Part shown: positions 3,963-22,204 of the stretch, piece after piece | Position numbering within the stretch: the first letter of the stretch is position 1 | How the letters are laid out: every line of letters begins with the position of its first letter | IMG/VR virus record: IMGVR_UViG_3300040758_000582 | Span: 1 to 30,229 of that record | From: a virus | DNA length: 30,229 nucleotides | Direction: 5' to 3' (one strand) | The notes under the pieces: generated by a model | Databases searched by the model: none | What the model was told of the DNA's origin: nothing | Seen by the model: the letters and a program-made list of their open reading frames with translations, nothing else | Position numbers and translations under genes: made by a program

Positions 3963-4328
3963 TTGAAACGACTCCTACTTTTGACGCTATCGACAGTCGC
4001 ATGTCTGCACTCTCCGGCGGGTCCGCCGGTTGTGAGAGTTCCGGTTCAGCAGCGGTTGTTTACGGCGTTGAGTCGTTTCGAGAATTGTAGGGCGTGGCGT
4101 AATCCCGGTTGCTTGCGGTTTGCCGGGCAGGCGGGCGCAGTGCGCGGGCCGGGCGGGTATGCGGTGTTCCGTAACCTACTCTTTGGGGAGCGCGCACTGC
4201 GACGCCAGATCGAGCACGGTCAAGGGCAGACGGTGTTTGAGTTCCTGACTCACTATAACCCTGGACATGCAAACTACCCTGCGAGGATCGCATCCATCGC
4301 TCAGTTGAGCTTAGCGGATGTGCTGTAA
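3963..4328 (+). CDS. Small exported phage protein, NPGC motif (P5-like structural family)
   Basis: This is a 121-residue protein from a TTG start. The TTG is chosen because AAGGA sits 10 bases upstream at 3948-3952 and because it gives a signal peptide (KRLLLLTLSTVAC). The only nearby ATG (3955) runs into a stop after three codons. The mature part has an N-P-G-C segment followed by LRFAGQ, GYAVFRNLLFGERAL and FLTHYNPGHANYPARI. This order (NPGN-like turn, F..Y/F.G..AL, then F...Y.P..-N) recalls phage structural proteins of the P5 or peptidoglycan-associated type. The assignment is by memory of the pattern. It lies between two giant tail genes, so a virion or wall-contact role is plausible. The Cys at the end of the hydrophobic stretch is only a poor lipobox match. 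Confidence 0.6.
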   Translation: MKRLLLLTLSTVACLHSPAGPPVVRVPVQQRLFTALSRFENCRAWRNPGCLRFAGQAGAVRGPGGYAVFRNLLFGERALRRQIEHGQGQTVFEFLTHYNPGHANYPARIASIAQLSLADVL

Positions 4329-4345
4329 CCGAGTGGACAGCGTAA

Positions 4346-7300
4346 ATGGCAACGATAACCAAACTGGAGCCACACAGAACGATGTATCTGCGCGGCTTCG
4401 ACCGTCGCGGGGCCGCGGCGTCGCTCAATAACGCATCGGCGGGCGGGTTTACCGTCTCGGGATGCTGGAGCGATCAAGCGGACTTCGCGGTGGCGGTGCT
4501 ATTCGATGCGGACGATGTGTATGGACACCTGTATACCTCGCGGTATCTGCCGGACTTCTCACTGGCGGGCGTGACATTGGATTTCGATTTGGCGTTGACG
4601 GGGTGCCAGAATCCCACCAGCGTGAAGTATCAGTCGGTGCCGTGGGGTTCGCTGGGATATGTCACAAGTTCGGAAGTGGCGGGCACGGTACCGCTTCCCG
4701 CGCCGACATCGGTTACGGGCGGAACGTTCGCGAGTTGCACGTTCGTGGTGGGGGGGACTCCGACCACTTACGACCGGATTCAACTGGTATACCTTGGAAA
4801 CATCGTAGCGGATGTGACCGGCATCACGACGGGCATGAGCCTCGATGGCGTGGCGTCGATGTTAGCGGGCGCGGTGAACACGCAGGCGCTCATCTTGACG
4901 CCTCCGATGCTGATCTCGGCCACCAGCTCCGGGGCGCAAGTCACCGTGACCTACGGCCAGGTAGGCAGAGACGGCAACGGCGTCGAGCTGGTTCCGATGT
5001 ACAAGGCGGCGGGAAACACGACCTTGGAATGCCTACCCAATCCACCTCTCAATGTGCTGCTGGGCGGATCAGACCCAACGTCGATGCACTTCCACTTGGA
5101 TTTCTCGGCGCTCGGGCTGGGAAGCGTGCGACAGGTCTGGCTCACGCTAGCGCCGTGGCTCACTTACAACCGCGCGGCGGGATACCCATCGCTGTCGCCT
5201 TATCTGCCGATGGAGTTTTCGGCTGTTTTCTCGAATTGGACGGTAGTGGATGCTGGCGGCGTGACACCACTGAAGGTGGCCGGGCCGGGATCAGTGACGA
5301 TCACTTCGGGCGACGCGTGGGCCGCGCGCGCGGGGAGTGGATGGGCACAGGCGGCCGGCTGGTACGTAGGCGGGTTCGCGTGGGAGAGCGCGCACGTGGG
5401 CGATATGGTGACGGTGAAGTACAGTTGCCAGCACACGCATAACCTGTATTTGGGGATGGCGATTTCGACGGGCGGCGGAACATTTGACGCGAAGGTGGAT
5501 GGAGGGTCGGCGGTCCCGGTGAGCGCTTACTCGCTCGAATCTTCGGCGAGTCCGACTTCGGGGCGGAGGTTGATCGCGACGGGAGTGGCGGCGGGGTCGC
5601 ATACGGTGGTGTTGACCGTGGCGACCGGGACGTGCCTTTTCGATTACTTGCAGGCTGCGGTGTTGAGCGATCCGGTGGCGCCGGCGGTGAGTTATCCGGC
5701 GGTGAGTTGCGCTTGCGACTTTGACACCGGGCAGACATACCAGATTCCGCCGGCGCGGCTGCTGTGGATACTTAGCCAGGCTGGGTTCGCGGGGGATATC
5801 GACCTCTACGCCGGAGTGTTCTTTGCCTTGAAGCGGGTGAGGGCCGGTGGGAGCTTTCGGCAGGCGACGGTGACGCTTTCGGGCGCTATCGGCGTTGGTA
5901 ATTCGTTTGGGGGCGGCGGCGCGGATACGGTCTGGATGACCGTTGGCGGGACGTTTCCGAACACGGGAACCACGATCAGTGGCGCGACGACTACCGGCGC
6001 CAATCCTACGGGGGTTGGCACGCTTGGCGGGACGGTGTTAGGCGCGGTGGCGTACCCAGCAGACACGCTGGCGACGCTGGCACAGCGTATGGTGGATGCA
6101 GTCAATGGGACCTTTGTGGGGATCGTGGCGGCGCCGACTGCGACAGCCGGGCAATTCACGATCACGGTGTTAAGCCCGATCAACGGATTCAGTTTGGATC
6201 TGTCGCTCAGTTCGGGAGCATCGATATCGCTGGCGGTTTCCGGGGATATTGGCACGCCCGGATTTGTGGGCGGTAACGAGGGGACGTGGGCTGTGGATGC
6301 GTCGCAATCGTCGCCGCTGAACCGGGCATTTAAGGACTACCTGACGGACCTGGCGGGCTTGGTACACGCGGCCGGCCAGACTATGACGGTGGCGTTTTCG
6401 CAGGAACTGCTTGGGGCGCCGGATGCGAATACATCGAGCGGCGCGTGGAGTCAGCGATTCGCCAACGGCAACCAGGTACTGACCGCGACGGGGTTCGGAT
6501 CGTGGGGCGCTGGGGTGGTTGAGGCGGTGAGCGGAGCGGGTCCGCAGACGATCCAGCAGACGGGGCACGGGTACATCACCGGGAACACGGTGCATGTCGC
6601 GCAGGGATCGAGCGGAGCGGTGTGGGCTGTTACGGTGACGGACGCGGACCACTACCAGTTGACCAGACTGGTATCAGGTACTAGCTTTACGGTCGCGGCG
6701 GGGGCGACTACGCTGATCGACCTCCAGACCACGCAATGCAACTTCAATCCGGCTACGGTGACGGCATACCTGGAAAACTGCTACTTGCAAGCGGCGGGGA
6801 TTCTGGCCGGGGTGGGGTTGACACCATGGCTGCAATTTGGCGAGGTGGGCTGGTGGTTCTATAGCCGGGTGAACGGGCTGGCGATTGGATACGCCAGCTA
6901 CACGGCTCCGATATCGATTGGAACGAACACAGCTCACGGGCTGAGTTCGGGACAGGGCGTGATCGATTGCGGGGTGCAGGGGAACACGGCGGCGAACGGG
7001 GACTTCGCGGCAACGGTTACCGATTCGACTCACTTTACGCTTGGTGGCTCCAGTGGCAATGGAACGTACGTAGGAGGCACTGGGACGGTGAGCGGCGGCG
7101 GGATGGCATATTATGACGCCTACACCGCGGCGGCGGCGCTGACGGCTCTGGGACGCGCGCTAGCTAACTTCTACACGCAGGATGACAATCCTTCCGTGAA
7201 CAGCTATGCGGATGCGAACTTTCTCCGGGGACTCGTTTATACGCACATGCACTCAATCGCGCAAGCGGTGAAGACGGCATACTCCGGCGCGAAGTGCGAG

Positions 7301-7711
7301 TGGTTGCTTCCGATGGATGTCAATAACCCGGTGGTCTACTGGAACGCGGGTTATCCGTATCCACAGGGCGGCCGGATGAACTGCTACGTCAACATCCCAT
7401 CGCAGTACATGGCGCCGAACGGTGACATTGACCGTGTGAAGCTGGAGGCGCTGAGCTGGGGAGCTTCGTATCTGGATCTCGATCTAGCTAAAGCGGCGAT
7501 GGCTTACGGATCTTCGGTGCTGACTTACGCGAAGTCCGCCACGGCGTACCTGATTCCGTGGTTCAACGGGGCTTGCGCCTGGACTGCGCAGTACCTGGCG
7601 GCGGTGAACGCCGGGACTCCGCTGGTGTGCTTTTGGGCATTCGACCATCTCTGTTTGCTGAGTTGGACTTTGCCACTCCCTGTCAATAAACGGCGCGCTC
7701 GGTTGTTCTGA
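4346..7711 (+). CDS. Giant tail-associated protein with possible glycosidase-like barrel
   Basis: This is a 1121-residue protein with no signal peptide. The N-terminal two thirds is beta-rich. A carbohydrate-binding-like domain lies at about 355-445, ending in a FDYLQAAV strand, and two related repeats surround the VADVTGITTGMSL and AVAYPADTLATLAQRM segments. The C-terminal third looks like a TIM-barrel glycoside hydrolase: AFSQELLG, then PWLQFGEVGWWFY with a candidate acid Glu at 833, then ANFYTQDDN, CEWLLPMDV and WGASYLDLDL. Two beta modules of the HG(Y/L)..G..V type sit at about 735-785 and 854-918, and the second appears inserted inside the barrel. The start ATG has only a weak upstream site (GAGTGG). 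A tail fibre or receptor-degrading role is inferred from size and position. No exact family was recognised. Confidence 0.7.
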   Translation: MATITKLEPHRTMYLRGFDRRGAAASLNNASAGGFTVSGCWSDQADFAVAVLFDADDVYGHLYTSRYLPDFSLAGVTLDFDLALTGCQNPTSVKYQSVPWGSLGYVTSSEVAGTVPLPAPTSVTGGTFASCTFVVGGTPTTYDRIQLVYLGNIVADVTGITTGMSLDGVASMLAGAVNTQALILTPPMLISATSSGAQVTVTYGQVGRDGNGVELVPMYKAAGNTTLECLPNPPLNVLLGGSDPTSMHFHLDFSALGLGSVRQVWLTLAPWLTYNRAAGYPSLSPYLPMEFSAVFSNWTVVDAGGVTPLKVAGPGSVTITSGDAWAARAGSGWAQAAGWYVGGFAWESAHVGDMVTVKYSCQHTHNLYLGMAISTGGGTFDAKVDGGSAVPVSAYSLESSASPTSGRRLIATGVAAGSHTVVLTVATGTCLFDYLQAAVLSDPVAPAVSYPAVSCACDFDTGQTYQIPPARLLWILSQAGFAGDIDLYAGVFFALKRVRAGGSFRQATVTLSGAIGVGNSFGGGGADTVWMTVGGTFPNTGTTISGATTTGANPTGVGTLGGTVLGAVAYPADTLATLAQRMVDAVNGTFVGIVAAPTATAGQFTITVLSPINGFSLDLSLSSGASISLAVSGDIGTPGFVGGNEGTWAVDASQSSPLNRAFKDYLTDLAGLVHAAGQTMTVAFSQELLGAPDANTSSGAWSQRFANGNQVLTATGFGSWGAGVVEAVSGAGPQTIQQTGHGYITGNTVHVAQGSSGAVWAVTVTDADHYQLTRLVSGTSFTVAAGATTLIDLQTTQCNFNPATVTAYLENCYLQAAGILAGVGLTPWLQFGEVGWWFYSRVNGLAIGYASYTAPISIGTNTAHGLSSGQGVIDCGVQGNTAANGDFAATVTDSTHFTLGGSSGNGTYVGGTGTVSGGGMAYYDAYTAAAALTALGRALANFYTQDDNPSVNSYADANFLRGLVYTHMHSIAQAVKTAYSGAKCEWLLPMDVNNPVVYWNAGYPYPQGGRMNCYVNIPSQYMAPNGDIDRVKLEALSWGASYLDLDLAKAAMAYGSSVLTYAKSATAYLIPWFNGACAWTAQYLAAVNAGTPLVCFWAFDHLCLLSWTLPLPVNKRRARLF

Positions 7712-7720
7712 GTCGCGCCG
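7691..7720 (+). other. Hairpin spanning the stop of the giant tail gene
   Basis: CGGCGCG (7691-7697) and CGCGCCG (7714-7720) form a perfect 7-bp stem with a 16-nt loop across the TGA stop. There is no U tract after it, so it is more likely an mRNA structure or a weak pause site than an intrinsic terminator. Confidence 0.35.
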
Positions 7721-7740
7721 AACTTCAAAGGACAAGACGA

Positions 7741-8448
7741 ATGCAACGTATACGCAATATCCTTGCCTGTGCTCTGCTGGCCGTGCTGATCGCGGCCGGC
7801 GTGTACGGGATTCTGTTTATCCGAGCGGTTACGACCGTGGTCGCGGCTGTGCCGGGAGAGATCCAGGCGACGCGATCCGCGCTGACTCAGGAGGTCCGGG
7901 ACACGCGGAAGGATCTCATGGAGCAGGTGTCCGGGGTCCGGAAGGATGCGGTGGGGCAGTTGACGGCGCTCCAGACGAACGCCGGGCAACAGATGACCTC
8001 TCTGCGGTCGGATGTGATGGTTCGACTGGACAAGATCGAGAGCGATACCAATACTCGCGTAGGCGATACGCTGGCGCGCGTGGATGCGGCGCTTGCGGTT
8101 GCCGATAACCGGATGGGCCAGATTGCCGGGACGGCGGAGGGGATACGAACGGATCTGAAACCTGCGGCAGTGAACTCGGCGGCGCTGGTTCAGGACCTGA
8201 AGGATAGCCTCGATGACAACTACGACGATATCAAGGCAACCATTGGTTCATCCACGGTCGCGGTGACCGGCATTGCGCGGGCGGCGGAGGCGGTGGGGAA
8301 CGCGGCTCCGAGTGTTACCGCAAGCGTGGATAGCGTCGCGAAGTCCGCGGCGCGGGAAGCGGACCAGATCACAAAGCCTCAGACGTTCTGGCAGGGAGTG
8401 AAGAGTTGGCTCCTTATCGTGAGCCGGTGTGCCGGTTTCCTTTTCTGA
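7741..8448 (+). CDS. Membrane-anchored coiled-coil protein
   Basis: This 235-residue protein has one N-terminal transmembrane segment (about residues 8-30, ACALLAVLIAAGVYGILFI). A long heptad-like region follows, rich in E, R, K, Q, D and A (about 40-215, for example LTQEVRDTRKDLMEQVSG). A second hydrophobic patch lies at the C-terminus (SWLLIVSRCAGFLF). The layout resembles DUF948-type or chemoreceptor-like coiled-coil proteins. AAAGGA lies 10 bases before the ATG. It sits between tail and exported-protein genes. It could be a cell-envelope protein made during infection or a virion component. The sequence does not show which. Confidence 0.65.
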   Translation: MQRIRNILACALLAVLIAAGVYGILFIRAVTTVVAAVPGEIQATRSALTQEVRDTRKDLMEQVSGVRKDAVGQLTALQTNAGQQMTSLRSDVMVRLDKIESDTNTRVGDTLARVDAALAVADNRMGQIAGTAEGIRTDLKPAAVNSAALVQDLKDSLDDNYDDIKATIGSSTVAVTGIARAAEAVGNAAPSVTASVDSVAKSAAREADQITKPQTFWQGVKSWLLIVSRCAGFLF

Positions 8449-8493
8449 GGAACCGAAAGTAGTGGTTTAGAAAACTCAACAGGAGCACAAACA

Positions 8494-8949
8494 ATGAAGC
8501 GACTCTTTGTAATCACCGTTGCGCTTGTACTCGCGGCACTCTGCGGGTTTGCGCAAGTGACGGTGAGTACGGCCGTCGAACCGGCGCTGAATGCGCCAGC
8601 GCGTTTCGGTGTATCGGCTGCGGTATCGGCAACGCTGCCTCCTACCTGGCTGGACGGGTGGGACGAAGGCAGGAACTCAGTGTCCATTCGGTATGGCTCC
8701 GGACGGACGATCCTCGGCGGGGTGGCGCGCAACTTCGTGGATTTCCTGCCGGGGCTGTCGCTAGTGGGCGACGTTCAGGCAGGTACGACAGGCGGGCGCG
8801 GAGTGATTCTGTACGGCGCGGCGGTGGCTACCGACCTGGGACGCGGATACTCCGTCACCTATGGCGCGCATATCAATAAGATCGCGGGACGGCCGATGTA
8901 TCCGAGCGCCTACGTGTCGATTGGGTACACGTTCGGAGGTTGGCGTTGA
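8494..8949 (+). CDS. Exported small beta-rich protein
   Basis: This is a 151-residue protein with a clear Sec signal peptide (MKRLFVITVALVLAALCGFA, likely cut before QVTVS). The mature region has alternating polar and hydrophobic stretches with many Gly and aromatic residues (NSVSIRYGSG, GYSVTYGAH, YPSAYVSIGYTFGG) and ends in an aromatic-rich strand. That is typical of small outer-membrane or periplasmic beta proteins. AGGAG lies 6-7 bases before the ATG. The next gene starts inside its stop codon, so the two are probably translated together. No family was recognised. It could also be a virion protein, although exported virion proteins are rare. Confidence 0.65.
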   Translation: MKRLFVITVALVLAALCGFAQVTVSTAVEPALNAPARFGVSAAVSATLPPTWLDGWDEGRNSVSIRYGSGRTILGGVARNFVDFLPGLSLVGDVQAGTTGGRGVILYGAAVATDLGRGYSVTYGAHINKIAGRPMYPSAYVSIGYTFGGWR

Positions 8950-9557: not shown

Positions 9558-9567
9558 AAGGAGTTTC

Positions 9568-10146: not shown

Positions 10147-10150
10147 CGAG

Positions 10151-10473: not shown

Positions 10474-10650
10474 ATGAACAAAGACGTTACGACCAGCATC
10501 GCCGGAGGTGCGGCCGGACTGATGTTGCTGAATCAGGTTCGGTGGGAGGCGGTACCGCACGGGGAGTGCGTGAAGATCGGCGTCGCGGTTGTGCTGGCGG
10601 CGTTGGGGTACCTGATGTACCGGGGAAAGGGGCCGGACGCGAATGCTTGA
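10474..10650 (+). CDS. Small membrane protein, holin-like
   Basis: This 58-residue protein ends 8 bases inside the following lysozyme gene. It has a short hydrophobic stretch (SIAGGAAGLMLLN) and a clear membrane helix (VKIGVAVVLAALGYLMY) followed by a basic tail. Size, topology and tight coupling to the endolysin suggest a holin that lets lysozyme reach the wall. Functional proof is absent, and other small membrane proteins in this phage could fill that role. A G-rich stretch (CAGGGGGCAAGG) provides the ribosome site. Confidence 0.6.
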   Translation: MNKDVTTSIAGGAAGLMLLNQVRWEAVPHGECVKIGVAVVLAALGYLMYRGKGPDANA

Positions 10651-11182
10651 GGGACTGAAGGCGAGGTTACGACAGCACGAGGGGGTTATCCCGCACCTCT
10701 ACCTGGACACGTTGGGCCTGGTGACTTGCGGGGTGGGCCACATGGTTCCGTCACCGGATCAGATGGCCGGAATCGCGATGGTGTGCGGGAGTGAAGTGGC
10801 GACGCTCGCACAGAAAGAGGCGGAGTTCGCCCATGTCAAGTCGCTGGAGGCAAGCAAGCTGCCGGCGTACTATGCACAGCGGACCACGTTGCGAATGACG
10901 CCGGAGGCTATCGACGCGCTCCAGGAGAGCGATGTAGAGAGCTTCCGCGCGGCGCTGTGTCACTTCCTGCCGGGGTTCACAGAATTCCCGGAGCCGGCTC
11001 AAGAGGCGCTGCTCGATATGGCGTTTCAACTGGGAGCGGGCGGGCTGGTGAGCAAGTTTCCGCACCTCATCGCGGCAGTGAAGGCGCGGGACTGGAACGG
11101 CTGCGCGGCGAACTGCCATCGCGCCGGTATCCAGGAATGGCGGAACGAAGCGACGGTGAAGTTGTTTCAGCAGGCTGCGTAG
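10643..11182 (+). CDS. Endolysin, T4-type lysozyme (GH24-like)
   Basis: This 179-residue muramidase should cut the glycan strands of peptidoglycan at lysis. The catalytic triad of the T4 lysozyme family is visible with correct spacing: Glu13 (RQHEG), Asp22 (LYLDT) and Thr28 (GLVTCGVGH). The C-terminal half has the usual helical pattern (PAQEALLDMAFQLGA, then FPHLIAAVKARDW, then R.AGIQEWRN). There is no signal peptide, so release should need a holin, consistent with the overlapping upstream membrane gene. AAAGGGG lies before the ATG. The length matches the family. Confidence 0.88.
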   Translation: MLEGLKARLRQHEGVIPHLYLDTLGLVTCGVGHMVPSPDQMAGIAMVCGSEVATLAQKEAEFAHVKSLEASKLPAYYAQRTTLRMTPEAIDALQESDVESFRAALCHFLPGFTEFPEPAQEALLDMAFQLGAGGLVSKFPHLIAAVKARDWNGCAANCHRAGIQEWRNEATVKLFQQAA

Positions 11183-11251: not shown

Positions 11252-11509
11252 ATGTTCGAAATCATAGCGGCCGGCGTGTCGCTCTTGGGTACGGCCATCC
11301 TGGGGTTGCTGGCCTGGGGTCTACGGGGAGAAGTGAAGGGCGTTCGCACGGAGATACAACTCTCGGGCGCGAATATGCGCACGGAGCTGGCGGAGGCGGA
11401 GATCCGGTTCTATCAGCGCGTGAACGGGAACTATGTGCGGAAAGAACTGCACAGCGAACTTACCGCGCGATTGGATCGCGTCGAAAGCAGGGTAGATGAC
11501 CTCGAATAA
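11252..11509 (+). CDS. Small membrane protein with coiled coil, spanin- or holin-like
   Basis: This 85-residue protein has one N-terminal membrane helix (about 3-24, IIAAGVSLLGTAILGLLAWGL). A charged helical region follows (GVRTEIQLSG, LAEAEIRFYQRVNG, TARLDRVESRVDDLE). An N-terminal anchor plus a coiled coil directly after an endolysin is typical of i-spanin or holin proteins, but no outer-membrane partner lipoprotein was seen nested in it. GGGG precedes the ATG. It overlaps the next gene by 14 bases. Confidence 0.62.
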   Translation: MFEIIAAGVSLLGTAILGLLAWGLRGEVKGVRTEIQLSGANMRTELAEAEIRFYQRVNGNYVRKELHSELTARLDRVESRVDDLE

Positions 11510-12644
11510 CAATCTGAGTCAACATCGGCTGGAAACCCGGAAGTGTCCGGTGTGCAAGAAAAAGAAAACGTTTCCGGCGCGCAACGAGACCTGCTCGTTC
11601 GAATGCGGCCGGAAGGCGGAGGCAGAGCGGAGGCAGCCGGCTCCTGTACAGATCGCGGATGAAGACCTCGATTCGGCGGTGCTGGAGGCGGTCAAGAAGG
11701 CGCGCGGGCGGGCGACGGTGCGGATGGTGTCCGAGGCTCTCAATAAGAGCGAGCGGACGGTTCAGGACACGGTGGCCAGGCTGAGAGACGCCGGGCACAA
11801 CGTAAGCGTCCGGACGGACGGGATCTGCGATATCTCCGGCGACGTGAAGCCGGGTAACGCGGTGAAGATCGTTCACGACATCGGCGAATACAACTCGCGC
11901 GTGAGACGGTTCGGCGTCACGTCGGATAATCACCTCGGCAGCAAGCATGAACGGCTGGATGTTCTGAACGCACTGTACGACCTGTACGAGGCGGAAGGGA
12001 TCACCGAAGTCTACAACGCCGGGAACTGGATCGAAGGCGAAGCTCGGTTCAACAAGTACGACATCAACGTCTACGGCATGGACCGGCAGGTGGACTACTG
12101 GATCGAGAACTATCCGCGGCGCAAGGGAATCGTCACGCGCTACGTGGCCGGCGACGATCACGAGGGATGGTATCAGCAACGCGAGCAAGTGGAGATCGGC
12201 AAGTACGCGGAACTTCGGGCGCGCGCGGCGGGCCGGGATGACCTGATCTATCTCGGGTATGTCGAGGCGGACATCGAACTGAAGGCGGAGCGCGGCTCGC
12301 GGATTATGCGCGTGATGCATCCGGGCGGCGGTTCGGCGTACGCGCTGAGTTACTCCATGCAAAAGATGGTGGAGAGCTTCCAGGGCGGCGAGAAGCCTTG
12401 CATTATTCTGGCGGGACACTACCACAAGTTCGATTACAACTACTACCGGGAAGTGTTTACGGTTCAGACCGGATGCACCTGCGATCAGTCGATTTTTATG
12501 CGCAAGAACAAGATTCAGGCGCATGTAGGCGGCTCGATTGTGGAGTTCAATCAGGCGCCGGATGGGACGATCAACCGGTTCAAGGTGGAGTGGTTGCCGT
12601 TTTACGACCGTGGCTTCTACGCCGGGAAGGCGAGGCGGTTCTAG
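11496..12644 (+). CDS. Calcineurin-like metallophosphoesterase with Zn ribbon and HTH
   Basis: This 382-residue protein has three parts. A Zn-ribbon-like segment has Cys17, Cys20, Cys33 and Cys37. A winged-helix-like segment lies at about 58-115 (VRMVSEALNKSERTVQDTV). A metallophosphoesterase domain follows with SDNHLG (Asp144, His146), AGNWIEG (176-181), GDDHEGW (219-225), His275 and GHYHK (307-311). Two motifs deviate from the common form: Asn177 stands where GD is frequent, and GDDHE replaces GNHD/E. Enzymes of this fold hydrolyse phosphoesters in nucleic acids or nucleotides with two metal ions. The DNA-binding-like N-terminus suggests a nucleic-acid substrate, which is an inference. It overlaps the upstream membrane gene. 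Confidence 0.78.
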   Translation: MTSNNNLSQHRLETRKCPVCKKKKTFPARNETCSFECGRKAEAERRQPAPVQIADEDLDSAVLEAVKKARGRATVRMVSEALNKSERTVQDTVARLRDAGHNVSVRTDGICDISGDVKPGNAVKIVHDIGEYNSRVRRFGVTSDNHLGSKHERLDVLNALYDLYEAEGITEVYNAGNWIEGEARFNKYDINVYGMDRQVDYWIENYPRRKGIVTRYVAGDDHEGWYQQREQVEIGKYAELRARAAGRDDLIYLGYVEADIELKAERGSRIMRVMHPGGGSAYALSYSMQKMVESFQGGEKPCIILAGHYHKFDYNYYREVFTVQTGCTCDQSIFMRKNKIQAHVGGSIVEFNQAPDGTINRFKVEWLPFYDRGFYAGKARRF

Positions 12645-13937: not shown

Positions 13938-14188
13938 ACGCACAAGAGAGGACTGTCTATCTCGCGGGGCCGATTACGGGCCTGACTTTCAACGGCGCGA
14001 ACGACTGGCGCAAGGATGTCACTGTACGGCAGTGCGACTACCGACCTGGTTCCGCTGAAAACCACCGTCAACGGGAAGTCGATCTACCTGTTGAGTGGCT
14101 CGGCGCGCGCGGGCGAGCACAAGGTGGTGTATCAGGACTCCAAGAATGCAGTGCTGATCGGCGGCGACGTTGGGGCATCGTTCAGTAA
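13934..14188 (+). pseudogene. Nucleoside 2-deoxyribosyltransferase-like gene, truncated by recombination
   Basis: The GTG at 13934 overlaps the upstream stop (GTGA). The first 29 codons give VYLAGPITGL, then NGANDWRKDV, the N-terminal nucleotide-binding strand and loop of nucleoside 2-deoxyribosyltransferase-like proteins. At about 14020 the sequence switches into a diverged copy of the exported-protein gene at 9568, in another frame. The reading frame continues as unrelated residues to a stop at 14188. The normal enzyme has about 130-160 residues, so the catalytic part is missing. The loss is probably real rather than a reading error, because the inserted segment is itself a clean gapless homolog. 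Confidence 0.75.
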
Positions 14189-14375
14189 TTCTGCCGGAGG
14201 GTCCGGGGTGACTCTCGGGGTCGCGGGGAGTTTCACGCTGACTTACGTGCGGCAACTCAGTCCGCATTGGGCGGTGGGCATACCGGTCCGGATGCTCTAC
14301 ATGAGCAACGTGGGACCGAACGGGACGGGAGCCTGGAATCCGGTGGTCGAAGCCGGAATCATCTGGAAGCCGTAG
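14016..14375 (+). pseudogene. 3' fragment of an exported beta-rich protein, second copy
   Basis: This 119-codon open frame begins at an ATG formed at the recombination junction. From codon 3 it matches the C-terminal 117 residues of the exported protein at 9568-10146. The signal peptide and Thr-rich linker are missing. AAGG touches the ATG with no proper spacing, so translation is doubtful. If it is made, the product would stay in the cytoplasm. Divergence is mostly at third codon positions, so the fragment evolved as a working gene elsewhere before it was joined here. Confidence 0.7.
14022..14375 (+). repeat. Second copy of the 354-bp diverged direct repeat
   Basis: This copy is gapless against 9793-10146. 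Homology starts at CTGTA and ends right after the shared TAGC at the stop. Its left end is fused to the deoxyribosyltransferase-like gene. After its right end, 58 bases precede the DUF1599 gene and include a 14-codon ATG frame at 14379-14423 with no recognisable match. Confidence 0.9.
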
Positions 14376-15870: not shown

Positions 15871-16179
15871 TCACTTGCGGCGGCAAACGCGGCGTTCGAG
15901 GGCGATGATCGACTTTAGGATGTCTTCGGCAGTATCCACGAACTCTTCAGGGCAATCCTTCAGAAACTTCACATAGCGCAAGGCGGCGGCGCGGTGCTTT
16001 TCCGGCACTTCGGCGAGTGGTCCTAAACGTACGCGTTCCGTCTGGCTTGCGCCGGGTGGATCTAGCCTGTCCATGACGGCTTTGTGAACCCACTCGGTTA
16101 GCTTCTGTCCATCCCTTGCGGCGCGTGACTTGACGGAGTTGTGAACATCCTCCGCAACGGATGCGTAAAGTCTTTTCAT
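15871..16179 (-). CDS. Ribbon-helix-helix (Arc/CopG-like) DNA-binding protein
   Basis: This is a 102-residue protein. The N-terminal 40 residues fit a ribbon-helix-helix fold: a short strand MKRLYASVAEDV, then helix VHNSVKSRAARDG, then LTEWVHKAVMDRL. Such dimers insert the strand into the DNA major groove and often repress their own promoter. The C-terminal half is helical and charged, perhaps for oligomerisation. It is the first gene of the leftward cassette. The 16180-16300 region just upstream holds repeated GTTCT/AGAAC half-sites and a long inverted repeat that could be its operator. It could be the lysogeny regulator or control only the cassette. Confidence 0.7.
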   Translation of the reverse strand: MKRLYASVAEDVHNSVKSRAARDGQKLTEWVHKAVMDRLDPPGASQTERVRLGPLAEVPEKHRAAALRYVKFLKDCPEEFVDTAEDILKSIIALERRVCRRK

Positions 16180-16201
16180 TTCTACAGTTTTGACACGAAG
16201 C

Positions 16202-17071: not shown

Positions 17072-17244
17072 CGGAGCGCCTGGCGGTGCGGTTCGAGGTT
17101 GTGTACTACGACCTCGGCGAGGGCCGGAAGATCTTCTGGCCGGCGGATGATCGATCCTCCGTACTGGCGGACAAGTTGCGCGAGTGTCGCGCTGCTGGCC
17201 ACTCGAACGCGCGGCTTGCTGAGGCAGGTGGGCGCTGTGCCTGA
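17068..17244 (+). CDS. Small hypothetical early protein
   Basis: This 58-residue protein starts at the ATG overlapping the upstream stop. It has a strand-rich start (LAVRFEVVYYDLGEGRKIFW) and a helical end (VLADKLRECRAAGHSNARL). No family was recognised. The next gene starts inside it. Confidence 0.5.
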   Translation: MTERLAVRFEVVYYDLGEGRKIFWPADDRSSVLADKLRECRAAGHSNARLAEAGGRCA

Positions 17245-17518: not shown

Positions 17519-17683
17519 GGACATCGAAGTTCGCCGGCACAGTTGAGCCGCGTAGGCGCCGTTCTGCTGGGAAGTCCACACAACCCCAAGACCGGCGTTG
17601 CTGTACCCCGCTAGCACCTCGAAGTTCCTTCCGGCGCCACGCGGGCCAACTGATCGAGGCGTTCAGGTTTCTGGAGGTAGTCG

Positions 17684-17869
17684 ATGGGAAAGGTAGTCGC
17701 GTTTGCGGCTCTGATGATCGGACTGGCGGTGCTCTGCGCGCTGCCGGTGATGTGGCTCTGGGATTACCTGATGCCGACGTTGTTCGGTCTGAAGGAAATC
17801 ACGTTCTGCCAGGGGCTGGCGCTGGCCATGCTGTGCTCGCTGCTCTTCAAGTCATCGAGCAGTAGTTAG
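17684..17869 (+). CDS. Small two-pass membrane protein
   Basis: This 61-residue protein has a strong GGAGG eight bases before the ATG. Two hydrophobic segments (VVAFAALMIGLAVLCALPVM and FCQGLALAMLCSLLF) flank a short loop (MPTLFGLKEI). The tail is Ser-rich. Small two-pass proteins like this are common in early phage operons, but the role is unknown. Confidence 0.62.
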   Translation: MGKVVAFAALMIGLAVLCALPVMWLWDYLMPTLFGLKEITFCQGLALAMLCSLLFKSSSSS

Positions 17870-17877
17870 GAGGATCG

Positions 17878-18180
17878 ATGTTCAACAAGAAAACGACGAA
17901 GAAAGTTACTCCCGAACCGGCTGCTCCGCTCCAGCCGAAACCGCAGATTCCGACCATGCTCTCGGCCATCCGGCGCGAACTGGCGAAGTACCAGGCGAAC
18001 ACGGAAGTCCTGGAAGCTCGACTGGCGTCCGTCATGCGGCCGGGTGAGGTTCGCTGCGATGGCGCGAAGCCGGCGCTCAGTTCGGCGGCTCCGGTCGCGG
18101 AGGCTCTGTCCGAGTACGTGGGAGTCCTGACGGCGCTCAACGCTCGGGTCAAAGACGTGATGGCGCGCCTGGAGATCTGA
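17878..18180 (+). CDS. Small helical early protein
   Basis: This is a 100-residue protein with AGGAGG just before the ATG. It has a Lys/Pro-rich N-terminus (KKTTKKVTPEPAAPLQ) and a long helical part (MLSAIRRELAKYQANTEVLEARL, split here by no breaks; ALSEYVGVLTAL). No family was recognised. It is coupled to the next gene by a two-base gap. Confidence 0.58.
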   Translation: MFNKKTTKKVTPEPAAPLQPKPQIPTMLSAIRRELAKYQANTEVLEARLASVMRPGEVRCDGAKPALSSAAPVAEALSEYVGVLTALNARVKDVMARLEI

Positions 18181-18182
18181 GG

Positions 18183-18470
18183 ATGAGGGGCGGGACACCG
18201 TTCGAGGAAGATTGCGCGCTCCTCAACTTCCTCGAACGGTTCGAGCTGGACTTGGAACGCCGGGTCTCGATTGAGATCACGGATCGCAAGGTCCTGGAGG
18301 AAAACGGGCTGATGCGGAAGTCTCCGGACTACGCGAAGATCCGGCGGCTACTGGAGGATGGGGCGATTGTGCAGGGCGCGCACTTGACGGGCGTGGAATA
18401 CGTGCTGAGAAAGAGGAGAGATCCAATTGCCGAAGGGGCATCAAGTCCAGATCACACCTCAGCAGGATGA
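18183..18470 (+). CDS. Small early protein, possible winged-helix
   Basis: This 95-residue protein starts two bases after the preceding stop, with GGAGAT upstream. The sequence is acidic and helical (DCALLNFLERFELDLERRV). A region KSPDYAKIRRLLEDGAIV and a strand VEYVLRKRR recall a small winged-helix fold. It overlaps the next gene by 44 bases. The function is unknown. Confidence 0.52.
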   Translation: MRGGTPFEEDCALLNFLERFELDLERRVSIEITDRKVLEENGLMRKSPDYAKIRRLLEDGAIVQGAHLTGVEYVLRKRRDPIAEGASSPDHTSAG

Positions 18471-19566
18471 GGTGATCCGCAAATGCTGGGCGCATAACGC
18501 GTACGGGCATCACGCGGCGAAGCGTGCCGCGGAGCTTACGGGGCTTACGCCGGACGTGGCGCATCGGCGGGCGGCGCAACTTGGTCTGATCTTCGCGCGG
18601 GAACGGTACCGGTGGACGGAGCCGGAGTTGAAGGTGGTCGAAGAGAACGCGCATCAGTCGCTGGAGACGATCCAACGGAAACTCATGCGCGGCGTCTCTC
18701 CGCCTGGTGTGAAGCGGACGCGTACAGCCATCGCCTCACAGATCCACGGACAGCGGTTCCGAACTAACTTGGACGGGATGAACCGCGGGCCGTTGGCGGA
18801 TGCGCTCGGGATCAGCATCATGCGACTGGAGCGGCTCCAAGGTGAAGGACACATCAAGGGCGAGCGGATGGAGTCGATCCGCCAGCAGTGCGGGTACGTG
18901 GAGGAGATCGACGGTGATAGGTTGCGCTGGTTCTACAGCAACGAAGAGATCGTCCGGTTCCTCTTTGGATGCCGGGCGGAGTTGGACCTCAGGAAGGTTA
19001 ACCAAGCATGGCTGATGGGACTGCTGGAGGCGTACATCACGATCTTTCAGCCTACCGGGAAGGATGCTCCGGTTCGGGCGCGGGATCAGAAACGGATCGA
19101 GCAATTAGAGGAGCACCTGTTCCAGTTGGAGCGGGAGTTGGAATCGGTACGCAACCCGGTGAAGCGCCGGCGGGGCCGTCCCACGATAGCCGAGAGGGAG
19201 AGCGAATTGGCGGCGGTGGCGGCTCGGATGCGGGAGCGGATGAGTCAATCTACTCCTACACGGCTACCCGCGCGACCGGGAATCCTCAGCGACGAAGATA
19301 TCATCGCAATCCGGTCCGGACGGTCAAGCCTCAAGCGCAAGCGGTCCGGGCCGGGGAGCGAAAAGAGCCAGAGTGGCGGAGCGGACTTTTCTCCGTCAAG
19401 CGCAGCTACTGGGATGACCTCGCAACTCAGCGAAGGGAACAGCGGGAACTTGAACAGCGAGAGAGACAAGGCGACATCGCATGGCGATTCCCCATCTTTT
19501 GGACTTGCTGGAGGTCTCAATGCAAGCTCGCTTACAAGAAGCCTTGAGGGCGGCGCGGAGGCGTAG
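18427..19566 (+). CDS. Putative DNA-binding regulator with HTH segments
   Basis: This 379-residue protein starts at a TTG with GAGGAGAG seven bases upstream. It begins with a segment rich in HTH-like helices (PQQDEVIRKCWAHNAYG, ELTGLTPDVAHRRAAQLGL). A SANT/Myb-like stretch follows (RWTEPELKVVEENAHQSL, RTRTAIASQIHG), then a MerR-like part (LADALGISIMRLERLQGEG) and a coiled coil (RIEQLEEHLFQLERELESV) with a basic RRRGRPT. The arrangement suggests a sequence-specific DNA-binding regulator of phage genes. The last 80 residues are Ser/Gly-rich and look unlike the rest. In the -1 frame the same DNA reads as a plausible charged helical protein, so the true C-terminus is uncertain. Confidence 0.66.
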   Translation: MPKGHQVQITPQQDEVIRKCWAHNAYGHHAAKRAAELTGLTPDVAHRRAAQLGLIFARERYRWTEPELKVVEENAHQSLETIQRKLMRGVSPPGVKRTRTAIASQIHGQRFRTNLDGMNRGPLADALGISIMRLERLQGEGHIKGERMESIRQQCGYVEEIDGDRLRWFYSNEEIVRFLFGCRAELDLRKVNQAWLMGLLEAYITIFQPTGKDAPVRARDQKRIEQLEEHLFQLERELESVRNPVKRRRGRPTIAERESELAAVAARMRERMSQSTPTRLPARPGILSDEDIIAIRSGRSSLKRKRSGPGSEKSQSGGADFSPSSAATGMTSQLSEGNSGNLNSERDKATSHGDSPSFGLAGGLNASSLTRSLEGGAEA

Positions 19567-19630
19567 CAATGATGGACGCGGCGACAAGGGCGCGGGCCGT
19601 GGCGGCGGCGTGCGGACACGATCTCAATAA
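19481..19630 (+). CDS. Possible small overlapping ORF
   Basis: This 49-codon ATG frame is out of phase with both flanking genes. The first half is a clean amphipathic helix (MAIPHLLDLLEVSMQARLQE). The end is basic and Gly-rich where it overlaps the next gene. AAGG lies about nine bases upstream. It may be real or a by-product of dense overlap. Confidence 0.25.
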   Translation: MAIPHLLDLLEVSMQARLQEALRAARRRSNDGRGDKGAGRGGGVRTRSQ

Positions 19631-19838
19631 CGAACTGACGATCATCTTCGCGGGGATCGCGGAGTGTATCGAGATGGCGGATGCGGACGATCCGATCCGG
19701 CCGTTTCTGCTGGAGATGCGCGCGGCGGCTCAGCGGTGCGCGTGGAAGGCGTCGGGACTTTTGAACTTTGCGGCACGTGGGGGAGGGAGATCTCCACGGT
19801 CGAGCATGGAGACGTTGATCGACGGGAATCTACTATGA
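19569..19838 (+). CDS. Stand-alone histidine-kinase phosphoacceptor-like domain
   Basis: This 89-residue protein has GGAGG eight bases before the ATG. The motif GHDLNNELTIIFAGIAE with His17 matches the H-box of histidine-kinase dimerisation domains (HDxNNxLT). A second helix follows (PFLLEMRAAAQRCAWKASGLLNFA), as in the two-helix hairpin of the DHp fold. There is no ATPase domain, receiver or membrane segment here or in the neighbouring genes. It could receive or drain phosphoryl groups from host kinases, or be a structural reuse of the fold; both are inferences. Its stop overlaps the next start. Confidence 0.65.
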   Translation: MMDAATRARAVAAACGHDLNNELTIIFAGIAECIEMADADDPIRPFLLEMRAAAQRCAWKASGLLNFAARGGGRSPRSSMETLIDGNLL

Positions 19839-20695
19839 AGAGACTACTTGCAATCCTGTACGCGACCTCGATGTGGGCGGCGACTACCACGGTTAGCCAG
19901 TCGGTGGTGGGTCCGAACAATCAGCCGGCTAGTGGGCAAGCGCTGATTCGTCTTTCGGCGGCTTGCAAGTCGAGCGGGTCCTATGTCGGGCAACAGACGA
20001 TCGCGGTGAAGTTCACGGCGACTCCGCCAACGGGACAGACGAACAACTTCAATGTGGCTCTGATTCCGAATGACACCTGTATCGTGTCGGGTCCGACTCC
20101 GGCCGGATGGTCCGGGACAGTGGCGTATTGGGTGGGAAACAGCGTCACGTACGGGACTCAGACGTGGCTTGCGATTGCGGCATCGACTGGCGTTGCACCT
20201 GGCTCCGATCCGAGGAAATGGGCACTGGTGAGTACGAGCTACACGGTATCCTGGACACTCACGGGCGGGCCGTCGTGGACGGAGACGTGGATCGTGCCAA
20301 CATCCGGGACCGCGGTTTCGGTGGACAGCGTGAAGGTGGCACAGGCGAACCTGCCCACTATCGCAGGCGTCATTCTGATGACTGGCGGCAGTGGGAGCCT
20401 GACGTACACCACTACTCCAGGGGACGGACAGTACATCCGCTGGAACGCTTCAATGAACGCCTGGCAGCCGGTTACGTTCGTGGATCAGGAGACGGTGAGC
20501 GGGACCATCGACGGAACTAACGTGACGTTCACGCTGGCGAATGCTCCGGGGCCATCGGCCGGGTTGGTGTTATTTCGCAATGGGATTGTGCAGAAGGCGG
20601 GACAGGATTACACGCTGTCCGGGAATACGGTCACGTTTGTGACGGCGGCGACGCCACAACCGGATGACACGCTGCTTGCGTGGTACCGGTATTAA
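19835..20695 (+). CDS. Exported modular protein with tail-fibre-type modules
   Basis: This is a 286-residue protein. The ATG overlaps the upstream stop and begins a signal peptide (MKRLLAILYATSMWAA). Residues 91-131 form a W..G..Y..G...YG...W...A-.. module closed by KWALV, similar to two modules in the tail tip protein. The C-terminal 66 residues (VSGTIDGTNVTFTLANAPGP, then FRNGIVQKAGQDYTLSGNT) are the module often found at the ends of phage fibres. A fibre-like protein with a Sec signal in an early-gene position is unusual. It may act at the cell surface, for example in adhesion or superinfection exclusion. Confidence 0.72.
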   Translation: MKRLLAILYATSMWAATTTVSQSVVGPNNQPASGQALIRLSAACKSSGSYVGQQTIAVKFTATPPTGQTNNFNVALIPNDTCIVSGPTPAGWSGTVAYWVGNSVTYGTQTWLAIAASTGVAPGSDPRKWALVSTSYTVSWTLTGGPSWTETWIVPTSGTAVSVDSVKVAQANLPTIAGVILMTGGSGSLTYTTTPGDGQYIRWNASMNAWQPVTFVDQETVSGTIDGTNVTFTLANAPGPSAGLVLFRNGIVQKAGQDYTLSGNTVTFVTAATPQPDDTLLAWYRY

Positions 20696-20707
20696 GGAGA
20701 GATGACG

Positions 20708-21274
20708 ATGAGATCGGTGACGATTGCGATTCTTGCGACGGTTTCGGTTCTGAGCGCGGCGAACGCTCCTGTCCGCCAGGCGCTGACGGCGACGGAGGTG
20801 GTGTTCTCGTATTCGCGGCCGGATGCGACGGCTTGCACGTGGGCGGTATCCACGAGCGCGACCTATTCTCCGCTGGTCGCGGAGTTGGTGGGGAGTCAGA
20901 GCGATTCCGCCACGTTGGGCGCGCGGTGGTTTCTGGTGGGGCACACCTCGGCGCTGAGCGCATCGACGGCGTACTACTGGCAACAGACTTGTGGGGCGGA
21001 GGTCTACACTGGGACGTTCACGACTCCGGCGGTACTGACAGGCGGCTCTGGAGCGATCTACCTCAGCATGGGGGAAATGACGGTAGCGGATAACGCGACG
21101 GTCTCCTACGGGCTGACATCGGCTCTCGGGAGCACGGTTAACGCACCGTGTACGCCGGGATGTGCGTTCACGATCAACAGCACCTCCGGCGCGATCCTCT
21201 TCTATAGCATCGCCTACAAGAATGGCGCGGATACGATCAACGCGGGAAGCGTTCACGTAGCGGTGGTCCCATGA
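20708..21274 (+). CDS. Exported beta-sandwich protein
   Basis: This is a 188-residue protein. The second of two ATGs is chosen because GGAG at 20696-20699 then has 8-base spacing and the product begins with a signal peptide (MRSVTIAILATVSVLSAANA). The mature part has a fibronectin-III-like pattern (ALTATEVVFSYSRPDATACT, then ALSASTAYYWQQTC) followed by a second strand-rich domain with paired Cys (NAPCTPGCAFTI). It is coupled to the next gene by an ATGA overlap. No exact family was recognised. Confidence 0.64.
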   Translation: MRSVTIAILATVSVLSAANAPVRQALTATEVVFSYSRPDATACTWAVSTSATYSPLVAELVGSQSDSATLGARWFLVGHTSALSASTAYYWQQTCGAEVYTGTFTTPAVLTGGSGAIYLSMGEMTVADNATVSYGLTSALGSTVNAPCTPGCAFTINSTSGAILFYSIAYKNGADTINAGSVHVAVVP

Positions 21275-21501
21275 CGATTACTCAGGCGGTCACACTCCAG
21301 TCGCGGGACGATCTGTTCCAGAACAGCAGCCAGACTTACACGCTGAGCGCGACTCCGGCGGCGGGCGCGACGGTTGACGTGTTCGTGAACGGTCTACTGA
21401 TGACTGAGGGCCTGGACTACACGTTGAGCGGAGCGGCTCTGACGTTCACCGGGCAGACGATTGGCGACAATCCGGTTATCCGGGTGAGGTATTGGGTCTG
21501 A
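21271..21501 (+). CDS. Stand-alone fibre C-terminal-type module
   Basis: This 76-residue protein without a signal peptide consists of one module (DDLFQNSSQTYTLSATPAAG, FVNGLLMTEGLDYTLSGAAL). It parallels the C-terminal module of the exported protein at 19835. Its start and stop overlap both neighbours (ATGA and TGATG), so it is part of the same coupled set. How it would leave the cell, or whether it assembles with virions, is unknown. Confidence 0.6.
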   Translation: MTITQAVTLQSRDDLFQNSSQTYTLSATPAAGATVDVFVNGLLMTEGLDYTLSGAALTFTGQTIGDNPVIRVRYWV

Positions 21502-21869
21502 TGCGACGATTATTCTTGCTTTCGGCTCTGGCGGCGACGTTGTTCGCGCAAGGGTTATCGACCACAACCACCACGCTACCGAATGCGTGGGCTTACGTGG
21601 TCTACGCTCCACAGACTCTGGCGGCCACGGGCGGCCAGGTGCCGTACACCTGGGCTGTTTCCGCCGGAACGCTGTGTACCGGGTTGACGCTTTCGACGGC
21701 TGGAGTGCTGAGCGGGGCGCCTACGGTGCATGGACCTTGCACGTTCACGGTGACGGTGACCGATGCTCTGAACGCTACGGCCAATCAGGCGTACACGATC
21801 ATGGTGAACGGTCCGGCGACTACCATCAGCGGGGCTGTCGTGATCAGCGGAAAGGTGACCATAAGGTGA
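21501..21869 (+). CDS. Exported putative Ig-domain protein
   Basis: This 122-residue protein has a signal peptide (MRRLFLLSALAATLFA, likely cut before QGLST). It is followed by one Ig-like domain of the putative-Ig (He_PIG) type: VVYAPQTLAATGGQVPYTW, then GLTLSTAGVLSGAPTV, then FTVTVTDALNATANQAYTI. Such domains are usually parts of large surface or fibre proteins. A single exported copy in a phage is unusual. The ATG overlaps the preceding stop. Confidence 0.7.
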   Translation: MRRLFLLSALAATLFAQGLSTTTTTLPNAWAYVVYAPQTLAATGGQVPYTWAVSAGTLCTGLTLSTAGVLSGAPTVHGPCTFTVTVTDALNATANQAYTIMVNGPATTISGAVVISGKVTIR

Positions 21870-21910
21870 AACGGACAATCGGACGATATAGTACGATGGA
21901 GGCGCACGTC

Positions 21911-22204
21911 ATGCGTACCTTGCTGGTGGTGTTGGTTGCGGCTGGTTCGATGTTCGGTCAAGATCTGGGTTCGCTGAATCCGGACAGGATCAAGGCGGTT
22001 CAGGAGCGTGAAGCTCACGAGCGCGCCGTTGCCGAGCGGATCGAATACCAGCTTGCGCAGCAACCGAAACCGGCGCCGAAACCCGCACCTCCAGTCCGCC
22101 ATCTTTCGCGCAAAGAGATAAAGGAACTCCGCGAGGCGCTGGATCGGTACTTCCGTGAGCATCCCGGACAGGTTCCGATTCTCTGGACGCCTCCGGCTCG
22201 GTAA
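21911..22204 (+). CDS. Small exported protein with Pro-rich linker
   Basis: This is a 97-residue protein. The ATG at 21911 has GGAGG eight bases upstream and starts a signal peptide (MRTLLVVLVAAGSMFG). An in-frame GTG at 21866 overlapping the upstream stop is the alternative. The mature part has a charged helix (RIKAVQEREAHERAVAERIE), a Lys/Pro linker (QPKPAPKPAPPV) and a second helix (SRKEIKELREALDRYFREH). The linker resembles periplasm-spanning segments. No family was recognised. It closes the exported block. Confidence 0.62.
   Translation: MRTLLVVLVAAGSMFGQDLGSLNPDRIKAVQEREAHERAVAERIEYQLAQQPKPAPKPAPPVRHLSRKEIKELREALDRYFREHPGQVPILWTPPAR

Follow-up and report, generated by a model that had tools for sequence, protein, structure and literature searches.

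A Temperate Phage of Acidobacteriota with a Set of Predicted Sec-exported Proteins

Results

Architecture of the Locus

The window, meaning the whole stretch of DNA analyzed here, is IMGVR_UViG_3300040758_000582 (30,229 nt; IMG/VR), a 30-kb temperate-phage fragment whose genes are named by the position at which they start (Table 1). The cellular relatives of its 11496 marker are all from Acidobacteriota and related loci were found inside Acidobacteriota genomes, the genetic data thus placing its host among this group of soil bacteria. The marker is also carried by the complete genome CP085323.1 (L055). Five related loci (L005, L006, L007, L061, and L062) together with the window are referred to as the window family. 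A megablast search with positions 3963–22204 and tblastn searches with 19835 and 9568 gave no match among 50,697 phage records, and the case consequently rests on metagenomic relatives.

The late region has as its virion anchor a J-like tail-tip gene, the product of which includes two CBM5/12-like stretches, recognized by eye, near residues 367–475. Genes 8494 and 9568 lie after the tail-tip gene and before the lysis cassette, whose small membrane protein would be holin-like, and 4346, in the same region, encodes a product with a weak match to the non-contractile tail sheath TIM barrel. A leftward pair of genes follows, and then a block of five ORFs (19835–22204) with 21271 in the middle. The DnaN gene marks a replication region directly downstream of this block, and it is from gene position only that early timing is deduced for 19835–22204.

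Table 1. Features of the window, with rule-based Sec/SPI scores; a hyphen within a sequence marks the predicted cleavage site
Feature	Position	Strand	Sec/SPI score	Evidence and remarks
J-like tail-tip protein	1..3948	+		phrog_31 central tail fiber J E=1.9e-25; phrog_5616 tail fiber E=1.8e-45
Possible exported protein, 121 aa	3963..4328	+	13.2	TTG start
Virion-type protein without signal peptide	4346..7711	+		PF23845 E=4.5e-5, below curated cut-off
Membrane anchor and coiled coil	7741..8448	+	14.8	Hydrophobic stretch runs on
Predicted exported small beta protein, 151 aa	8494..8949	+	15.2	CGFA-QVTV
Predicted exported 8-stranded outer-membrane beta-barrel, 192 aa	9568..10146	+	17.2	AF2, Foldseek, VIA
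Lysis cassette: small membrane protein and endolysin	10474..11182	+		Endolysin 10643-11182, phrog_7 E=4.8e-10
Partial second copy of 9568 barrel gene, without signal peptide	14022..14375	+		Direct repeat D1
Predicted exported protein, 170 aa	15338..15850	-	15.8	AALA-QTPD
ParD/ribbon-helix-helix-like partner of 15850	15871..16179	-		PF09386 ParD E=0.006, below cut-off
Predicted exported fiber-type protein, 286 aa	19835..20695	+	11.3	ATGA overlap with upstream ORF
Predicted exported beta-type protein, 188 aa	20708..21274	+	12.7	Strong RBS
Fiber-type domain, 76 aa, without signal	21271..21501	+		ATGA coupling
Predicted exported Ig-like (He_PIG) protein	21501..21869	+	13.6	TLFA-QGLS; TGATG coupling
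Predicted exported protein, 97 aa	21911..22204	+	12.1	GSMFG-QDLG
DNA polymerase sliding clamp (DnaN)	22331..23419	+		Three clamp domains, E<=1.1e-22

Signal Peptides

N-termini were scored with a rule-based Sec/SPI test that takes into account the charge of the n-region, an uninterrupted h-region, and the residues at −3/−1, with a cut-off of 11 for a pass. All eight N-termini named as signal peptides in the original prediction have the n-h-c pattern with acceptable −3/−1 residues and pass, and the original prediction is largely upheld. By this test, a lipobox is absent from all eight. A ninth passing N-terminus, that of 7741, is probably signal-anchor-like and uncleaved. Only 61 of 9341 internal start codons pass the same cut-off (0.65%, the false rate per internal start) compared with 97 of 1116 called genes (8.7%), a 13-fold excess. 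Signal-bearing genes make up 32/163 (19.6%) of the window family versus 14/295 (4.7%) in five control phages (lambda, P22, D3, P2, and BPP-1; Fisher p = 1e-6). Many of the 14 control-phage positives are spanin-type genes, lom or bor.

The cleavage ends had been described as mostly A/G-F-(A/G)-Q or A-x-A. A Gln follows Ala or Gly near the predicted site in five of the eight candidates. A cleavage-site Gln is found in 14/30 cases in the window family and in 11/23 in acidobacterial chromosomal regions, as compared with 12.5% of internal hydrophobic segments and 1/12 in the control phages. The feature is therefore approximately four-fold more frequent in the family than in chance segments and equally frequent in acidobacterial chromosomal genes.

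The signal peptide is kept in relatives of 9568, 15850, 19835, 21501, and 21911, with signals retained despite sequence divergence in L005–L007 and L061. No homologues of 20708 and 3963 were found among the related loci compared. Export of the proteins as a set is supported by the enrichment over controls, by the retention of signals among relatives, and by the Gln bias at the cleavage site. Of the original eight, six appear solid on sequence grounds (8494, 9568, 15850, 19835, 21501, and 21911), with 20708 and 3963 weaker, and at least six window genes are predicted with high confidence to encode products exported via Sec. That most of these N-termini are chance matches or the result of miscalled starts is extremely improbable. 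The predictor does have known false positives (DnaN of L061 scored 12.9), 19835 scores low and the start of 3963 is weak, but these points are set against the 13-fold excess, the conservation, and the Gln bias, and the chance explanation was rejected on the internal-start and control-phage comparisons.

Exported Candidates of the Late Region and Leftward Pair

Searches of Pfam and PHROGs with the eight candidates gave He_PIG as the only clear match. For 9568, the AF2 model is of low confidence (pLDDT 56, pTM 0.47), and only small outer-membrane barrels head the list of Foldseek matches, with OmpA, Ail, and OmpW at the top. VIA returned Z values of 14.4 for NspA, 10.7 for Ail, and 10.4 for OmpX over residues about 42–192. 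The model thus makes it likely that 9568 is a small 8-stranded outer-membrane barrel. In a homologue of this protein the mature part is 94% identical and the signal sequence is largely different. The partial copy at 14022 interrupts a gene whose counterparts in L005, L007, and L061 are intact; it has 87% nucleotide identity to 9568, with 33 synonymous nucleotide differences and 9 non-synonymous codons. The idea that the repeat 9793/14022 signals a diversity-generating cassette was dropped because the differences are mostly synonymous.

Gene 7741 has homologues in L005–L007, L061, and L062, and in L005, L006, L009, L061, and L062 the slot after it is occupied by a small beta protein with a signal. 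As the slot is kept and the sequence is not, homologue support for 8494 is one of position only. A viral sequence scan gave no viral homologue of 8494, the product of which, judged by its position, is probably also an outer-membrane barrel. Gene 3963 resembles NPGN-type phage proteins by eye and is absent from L005, where the flanking genes abut; this absence and its TTG start make it the least secure of the eight. In the leftward pair, 15850 has a 62% identical homologue with a signal in L005, and the corresponding slot in L007 holds an unrelated lipoprotein. It would be a host-type periplasmic moron, separate from the other exports.

The Early Block

The exports had been divided into five late or moron-associated genes and four early genes, which sums to nine rather than eight, and the early group was taken as one coupled block of four. 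This description was not sustained: there are five ORFs, 21271 is without a signal, and 21911 starts 41 nt downstream of the 21501 ORF with no overlap. The 19835 protein is composed of a signal, a TTTVSQSVVGP domain, a CBM5/12-like insert (about residues 87–131), and a fiber-type C-terminal domain, and its homologues in L005, L006, L007, L059, and L061 have signal scores of 11.7–13.8. The insert is CBM-like only, its score against CBM5/12 (PF02839) being 11.8 bits with a cut-off of 26.2. No sequence in the PDB matched the 19835 profile, and its structure model is unusable (pLDDT 39). A link between the 19835 gene and J is limited to the by-eye CBM-like stretches.

The 21271 domain resembles part of Klebsiella jumbo-phage tail fibers, and its homologues in L006, L007, and L061 do carry a signal. 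He_PIG (PF05345) is assigned to 21501 with 46.2 bits, above the curated cut-off of 24. Its L005 homologue aligns with CBM_5_12 (PF02839; E=4.9e-4) at 20.5 bits, below the cut-off of 26.2, and shares with 19835 of the window a 45-residue CBM-like module in which 27/45 positions are identical. Homologues of 21911 are found in L005 (78%) and L006 (63%) with the signal region conserved, and in L061 a 21911-like domain is fused behind a 21271-like domain under one signal. These comparisons show that the predicted fiber-type, CBM-like, and Ig modules of the block are shuffled and re-fused behind signal peptides.

Exported Fiber-like Proteins in Relatives

Relatives found via the 11496 marker repeatedly encode signal-bearing proteins, the largest of them 1034 aa in length, and one relative found via the 19835 profile encodes a signal-bearing fiber-like protein of 1535 aa. 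These relatives do not conform to the premise that phage exports are usually limited to lysis or conversion proteins. Those of 730–1034 aa are fiber- or tailspike-like and located at the tail-fiber position, one of them matching tail spike families, and in L013 and L028 such a gene directly follows a large tip-like gene. A signal-bearing fiber-like giant is likewise encoded in a conserved chromosomal cluster of head genes. In ordinary Acidobacteriota chromosomal surroundings (L091, L092, L079, and L081) the 19835 family is found as single proteins of 425–440 aa, a signal being called for most of them. Part of an 1870-aa L015 protein that lacks a signal, and is probably a tip protein, shows homology to a signal-bearing protein of L052, and such domains thus occur both with and without a signal. 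A literature search with the terms used found no papers on exported phage tail fibers or tailspikes.

Discussion

Exported phage proteins are usually counted as one or two per genome. In this phage group of an abundant, little-studied soil phylum, up to one-fifth of the genes may be directed to the envelope, which suggests that the phage and its relatives rework the outer surface of the host, perhaps with the purpose of excluding competing phages. In such a scheme the temperate phage would send a set of proteins through the host Sec pathway: 9568, and probably 8494, would form small outer-membrane barrels made from genes between tail tip and lysis, and block 19835–22204 would supply fiber-type, carbohydrate-binding-like, and Ig-like modules that are released or seated in the outer membrane. 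By binding surface glycans or receptors, these products would occupy or alter the phage receptor, and further phages, as well as the phage's own progeny meeting debris, would fail to adsorb. As a whole, an envelope-acting set for receptor masking or superinfection exclusion is the best explanation, held tentatively and at somewhat under even probability. Of its parts, surface binding by the early block products is moderately probable and receptor masking as the role of the set is possible, if a little more doubtful than the whole. The original suggestions that the proteins remodel the envelope or act outside the cell thereby gain the predicted barrel fold of 9568 and the fiber-type, CBM-like, and Ig (He_PIG) modules of the early block, respectively, the roles themselves being inferred. 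No domain shared between the exported proteins and the tail tip of the same phage was found by blastp within the window, which weakens a version in which the exports act as decoy receptor-binding proteins.

The same proteins might instead serve lysogenic conversion, with exported adhesins, lectins, and an outer-membrane protein helping the lysogen to stick to soil polymers or neighbors rather than excluding phages. The chromosomal 425–440-aa proteins, the position of 15850 apart from the lytic genes, and the suitability of CBM-like and Ig modules for adhesion are consistent with this. However, the block runs in the same direction as the replication genes and immediately precedes DnaN, where repression in a lysogen would be expected, and the barrel genes lie between tail and lysis genes and are expected to be lytic, such that this reading is rather unlikely. 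It is distinctly unlikely that the proteins are virion parts, with signals that deliver fibers to the periplasm for addition to virions at lysis or later, or with N-termini that are merely signal-like. The 730–1034-aa proteins at the tail-fiber position and the giant of the head-gene cluster would fit such a role, but the fiber-type genes of the window lie beside the clamp gene, away from the tail genes, and tailed phages assemble in the cytoplasm. Least probable of these three is that the late exports are lysis accessories, spanin-like or wall-degrading, that work with the holin and endolysin, the rest being unrelated passengers. In its favor, 8494 and 9568 have the genes for the small membrane protein and the endolysin nearby, and 7741, an anchored coiled coil, has the shape of an inner spanin; against it, the model of 9568 is that of an 8-stranded outer-membrane barrel and not of a spanin, and the lysis cassette is distant from five of the listed genes.

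Receptor masking by exported proteins has phage-encoded precedents. Llp of T5, encoded next to the receptor-binding gene, is a lipoprotein that is exported and blocks the receptor (PMC4728585), and in small Escherichia coli siphoviruses both receptor-binding proteins and exclusion factors are encoded at the J-adjacent locus (PMC11990801). The window's exports would resemble the receptor-blocking proteins Llp of T5 and Cor of T1 in being phage-encoded envelope proteins (PMC4728585, PMC11990801). Llp is expressed early, as is likely for the block from its position; unlike Llp, the eight candidates lack a lipobox and instead form a multi-gene set of beta modules. In having a signal peptide, a modeled small 8-stranded barrel, and a place in the gene order between J and the lysis genes, 9568 is similar to lambda Lom and other Ail-type proteins, but it lies several genes from J, not directly after it, and is unrelated by sequence. 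With no match to the Ail/Lom Pfam family at E<=1, it may be said to work like Lom/Ail and not to be a family member.

The tail-fiber, He_PIG, and CBM modules of virions are of the same kinds as those in the window's exports, which differ in being placed behind Sec signals and away from the tail genes. Tail-fiber-type modules in this setting would point to phage-host-phage competition at a so far unexplored level outside the cytoplasm, and raise the testable questions of which receptor is blocked by which exported module and whether particles ever take up exported fibers. An unlikely extension is that Acidobacteriota phages and the domesticated phage-head gene cluster deliberately export fibers through Sec, to be displayed on the cell for docking or receptor masking or stored for attachment after lysis; if true, exported fibers would be a functional class separate from virion-assembled fibers.

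Lom and Llp are thus analogues of the window's exports. Nixviridae phages of Porphyromonas gingivalis are reported to encode Q-type exported proteins for which, in the part of the source consulted, the authors infer envelope modification (PMC10367356). Like the window family, these phages have several exports per group and follow the cleavage-site Gln habit of their host, but their host belongs to the Bacteroidetes, not the Acidobacteriota, and that part of the source describes no fiber-type or barrel architecture (PMC10367356).

Predicted Signal Peptides of the Exported Proteins

The original prediction held that signal peptides are encoded by eight genes in the 3963–22204 interval (named here by their start coordinates). 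Genes were called with a simple home-made gene caller and their N termini scored with a home-made, rule-based scheme considering a positive n-region, an uninterrupted hydrophobic h-region, and permitted residues at −3 and −1, with a cut-off of 11. All eight starts reached the cut-off, with scores from 11.3 (19835) to 17.2 (9568), and the background pass rate was 0.65% of 9341 internal start codons compared with 8.7% of called genes. Signal-bearing genes accounted for 32 of 163 genes in the window family (the window and its relatives L005–L007, L061, and L062). In the control phages lambda, P22, D3, P2, and BPP-1 the count was lower (14 of 295; Fisher p = 1e-6), and many of these 14 were spanin-type genes, lom, and bor.

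Conservation in relatives provides independent support for the signal peptides. The mature part of 9568 is 94% identical to its L005 homologue, and the signal sequence is largely changed with its character kept. For the leftward gene 15850 (minus), L005 encodes a signal-bearing homologue at 62% identity, and an unrelated lipoprotein fills the slot in L007. The 19835 signal is the weakest in the window, with homologues scoring 11.7 to 13.8, and the G↓QDL site of 21911 is kept in L005 and L006. No sequence relative of 8494 was found in the viral contigs scanned; the slot 3′ of 7741, the conserved anchored coiled-coil gene preceding it, holds a signal-bearing small β protein in L005, L006, L009, L061, and L062. 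For 20708 and 3963, no relative was found among the loci compared; 3963 starts with TTG and is missing from L005, whose J-like gene directly adjoins the following one. Consequently, six of the eight signals, backed by relatives or by slot, are well supported and these two are possible.

With the Gln bonus removed from the score, Gln followed Ala, Gly, or Ser near the cleavage site in 14 of 30 signals of the window family, 23 of 55 in other viral relatives, and 11 of 23 in acidobacterial chromosomal regions (L078–L092), compared with 12.5% of internal hydrophobic segments and 1 of 12 signals in the control phages. Gln at +1 after Ala or Gly is common in acidobacterial signals and resembles the Q-rule of Bacteroidetes, the paper on which makes no mention of Acidobacteria (PMC5837995). 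At the sequence level, the signal-like N termini are conserved and their cleavage site is host-like.

Phage Type and Host

The 30,229-base IMG/VR virus record is likely a fragment of a phage genome, and head genes are absent from it. It opens within a late region, where a J-like tail-tip gene comes first (phrog_31, E = 1.9e-25). An endolysin gene is next, then a replication region encoding DnaN and DnaB, and, at the end, a tyrosine integrase (PF00589, E = 2.8e-14). The record thus represents part of a tailed phage that is temperate. The 11496–12644 protein is the best conserved marker of the group (90–97% in the nearest relatives: L005, 97%; L006 and L007, 90%), and these three contigs are syntenic with the window over most of their length; L059, L061, and L062 were retrieved with a 19835 profile. 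The marker matches 48 viral contigs and three cellular ones. The cellular contigs all belong to Acidobacteriota: two are from MAGs, and the third is the complete genome of Acidobacteriaceae bacterium ZG23-2. The kinship of its relatives points to Acidobacteriota as the host of this phage, itself one metagenomic contig.

The marker has weak Pfam matches to HTH and metallophosphoesterase-like domains, and a Halorubrum virus encodes a 31% relative. ARAGORN called an undetermined tRNA with a four-base anticodon at 18651–18743 (minus), inside the 18427 gene, which is probably spurious.

Fibre-type Modules in the Early Block and in Relatives

Genes 19569, 19835, 20708, 21271, and 21501 are tightly packed, three of the joints being ATGA or TGATG overlaps; 21911 begins 41 nt past them, and DnaN is next. 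The 21501 product scores 46.2 bits as a He_PIG Ig domain, for which the cut-off is 24. The C-terminal domain of 19835 recurs as the stand-alone 21271, which is similar to part of Klebsiella jumbo phage tail fibres. A CBM5/12-like insert is present in the 19835 of the window and missing from its homologues, and this 45-residue module sits in the 21501 homologue of L005 (27 identities). A signal on 21271 is absent from the window and L005 and present in L006, L007, and L061, where the L061 homologue is fused to a 21911-like part. As read from these sequences, the early block is a set of fibre-type modules shuffled behind predicted signal peptides.

In contigs retrieved with the 11496 marker, the tail-fibre position is taken by large signal-bearing proteins, some of which have hits to tail spike families, to a Laminin_G lectin domain, or, weakly, to GDSL or pectate-lyase signatures.

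Large signal-bearing proteins of relatives retrieved with the 11496 marker
Contig	Length (aa)	Position
L013	997	directly 3′ of 1362-aa tip-like protein
L028	908	tail-fibre position
L033	1034, 261, 958	tail-fibre position
L052	871, 783	tail-fibre position
L011	907, 731	tail-fibre position

Judged by the imperfect signal score, ∼16 of the 45 distinct contigs carry a signal-bearing protein of at least 250 aa without further membrane segments. An L052 signal-bearing protein is 28% identical (524 columns) to a stretch within a signal-less 1870-aa L015 protein, probably a tip protein, and in L059 the gene for a 19835-family protein of 1535 aa precedes two further signal-bearing genes. L014, a Bacteroidetes-like contig of 33% GC with a relative of the marker, has four signal-bearing genes (one of 884 aa); the exported-fibre habit may thus extend beyond Acidobacteriota.

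A report on P. gingivalis phages describes multiple exported Q-type proteins, of unknown function, in one phage group (PMC10367356), a feature shared with the window family. The novel elements here are the phylum, the placement of fibre-type modules behind signals, and the fact that the habit recurs across many contigs; no paper on exported tail fibres was found in the open-licence literature searched.

9568 Is Very Probably an Outer-membrane Barrel

Structure prediction, proposed originally as a check, gave for 9568 an eight-stranded AlphaFold2 model of modest confidence (seven aligned sequences, pLDDT 56, pTM 0.47), whose best Foldseek matches were OmpA, Ail, OmpW, and other small outer-membrane proteins. 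A second aligner (residues ∼42–192) returned Z scores of 14.4 for NspA, 12.5–14.3 for several OmpA entries, and 10.7 for Ail. On this model, 9568 is very probably an eight-stranded outer-membrane barrel. Like lambda lom, the gene lies between J and the lysis genes; a Pfam search did not place it in the Ail/Lom sequence family.

A partial, signal-less copy of the barrel gene at 14022–14375 (87% nucleotide identity, differences mostly synonymous) breaks a gene whose counterparts in L005, L007, and L061 are intact. It may stem from recombination with a related phage or, alternatively, from a chimeric assembly.

Possible Receptor Masking or Benefit to the Host

The early block would be expressed early, because it is located among, and co-directional with, the replication genes. 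Its modules could bind surface glycans or proteins, and masking or changing the phage receptor would be the most likely mechanism of the exported set. T5 Llp provides a precedent, being an exported early protein that keeps the receptor blocked and progeny safe from debris (PMC4728585; Decker 1994, cited in PMC11990801). Receptor masking is weakened by a blastp comparison of the exported proteins with their own phage's tail tip, in which no shared domain was detected. The main rival is conversion that benefits the host, with the exported products serving the lysogen, because single chromosomal relatives of 19835 exist in Acidobacteriota outside any phage context. These are stand-alone proteins of 425–440 aa (L063/L091, L064/L092, L079, and L081), most with a called signal peptide, encoded in ordinary chromosomal surroundings, e.g. 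beside seryl-tRNA synthetase.

A separate chromosomal cluster is conserved in Acidobacteriota (L078, L080, L082–L090, and L100–L113). It encodes a capsid-like protein of 323 aa, together with matches to portal, head-tail adaptor, and terminase large subunit. Of 396 Acidobacteriota genomes, 34 have the cluster, each as a single copy, at 71–100% identity and with no stops; it resembles a phage head module that has been domesticated, or a gene-transfer-agent-like element. One variant (13 genomes examined) adds a signal-bearing, fibre-like protein of 480–1560 aa.
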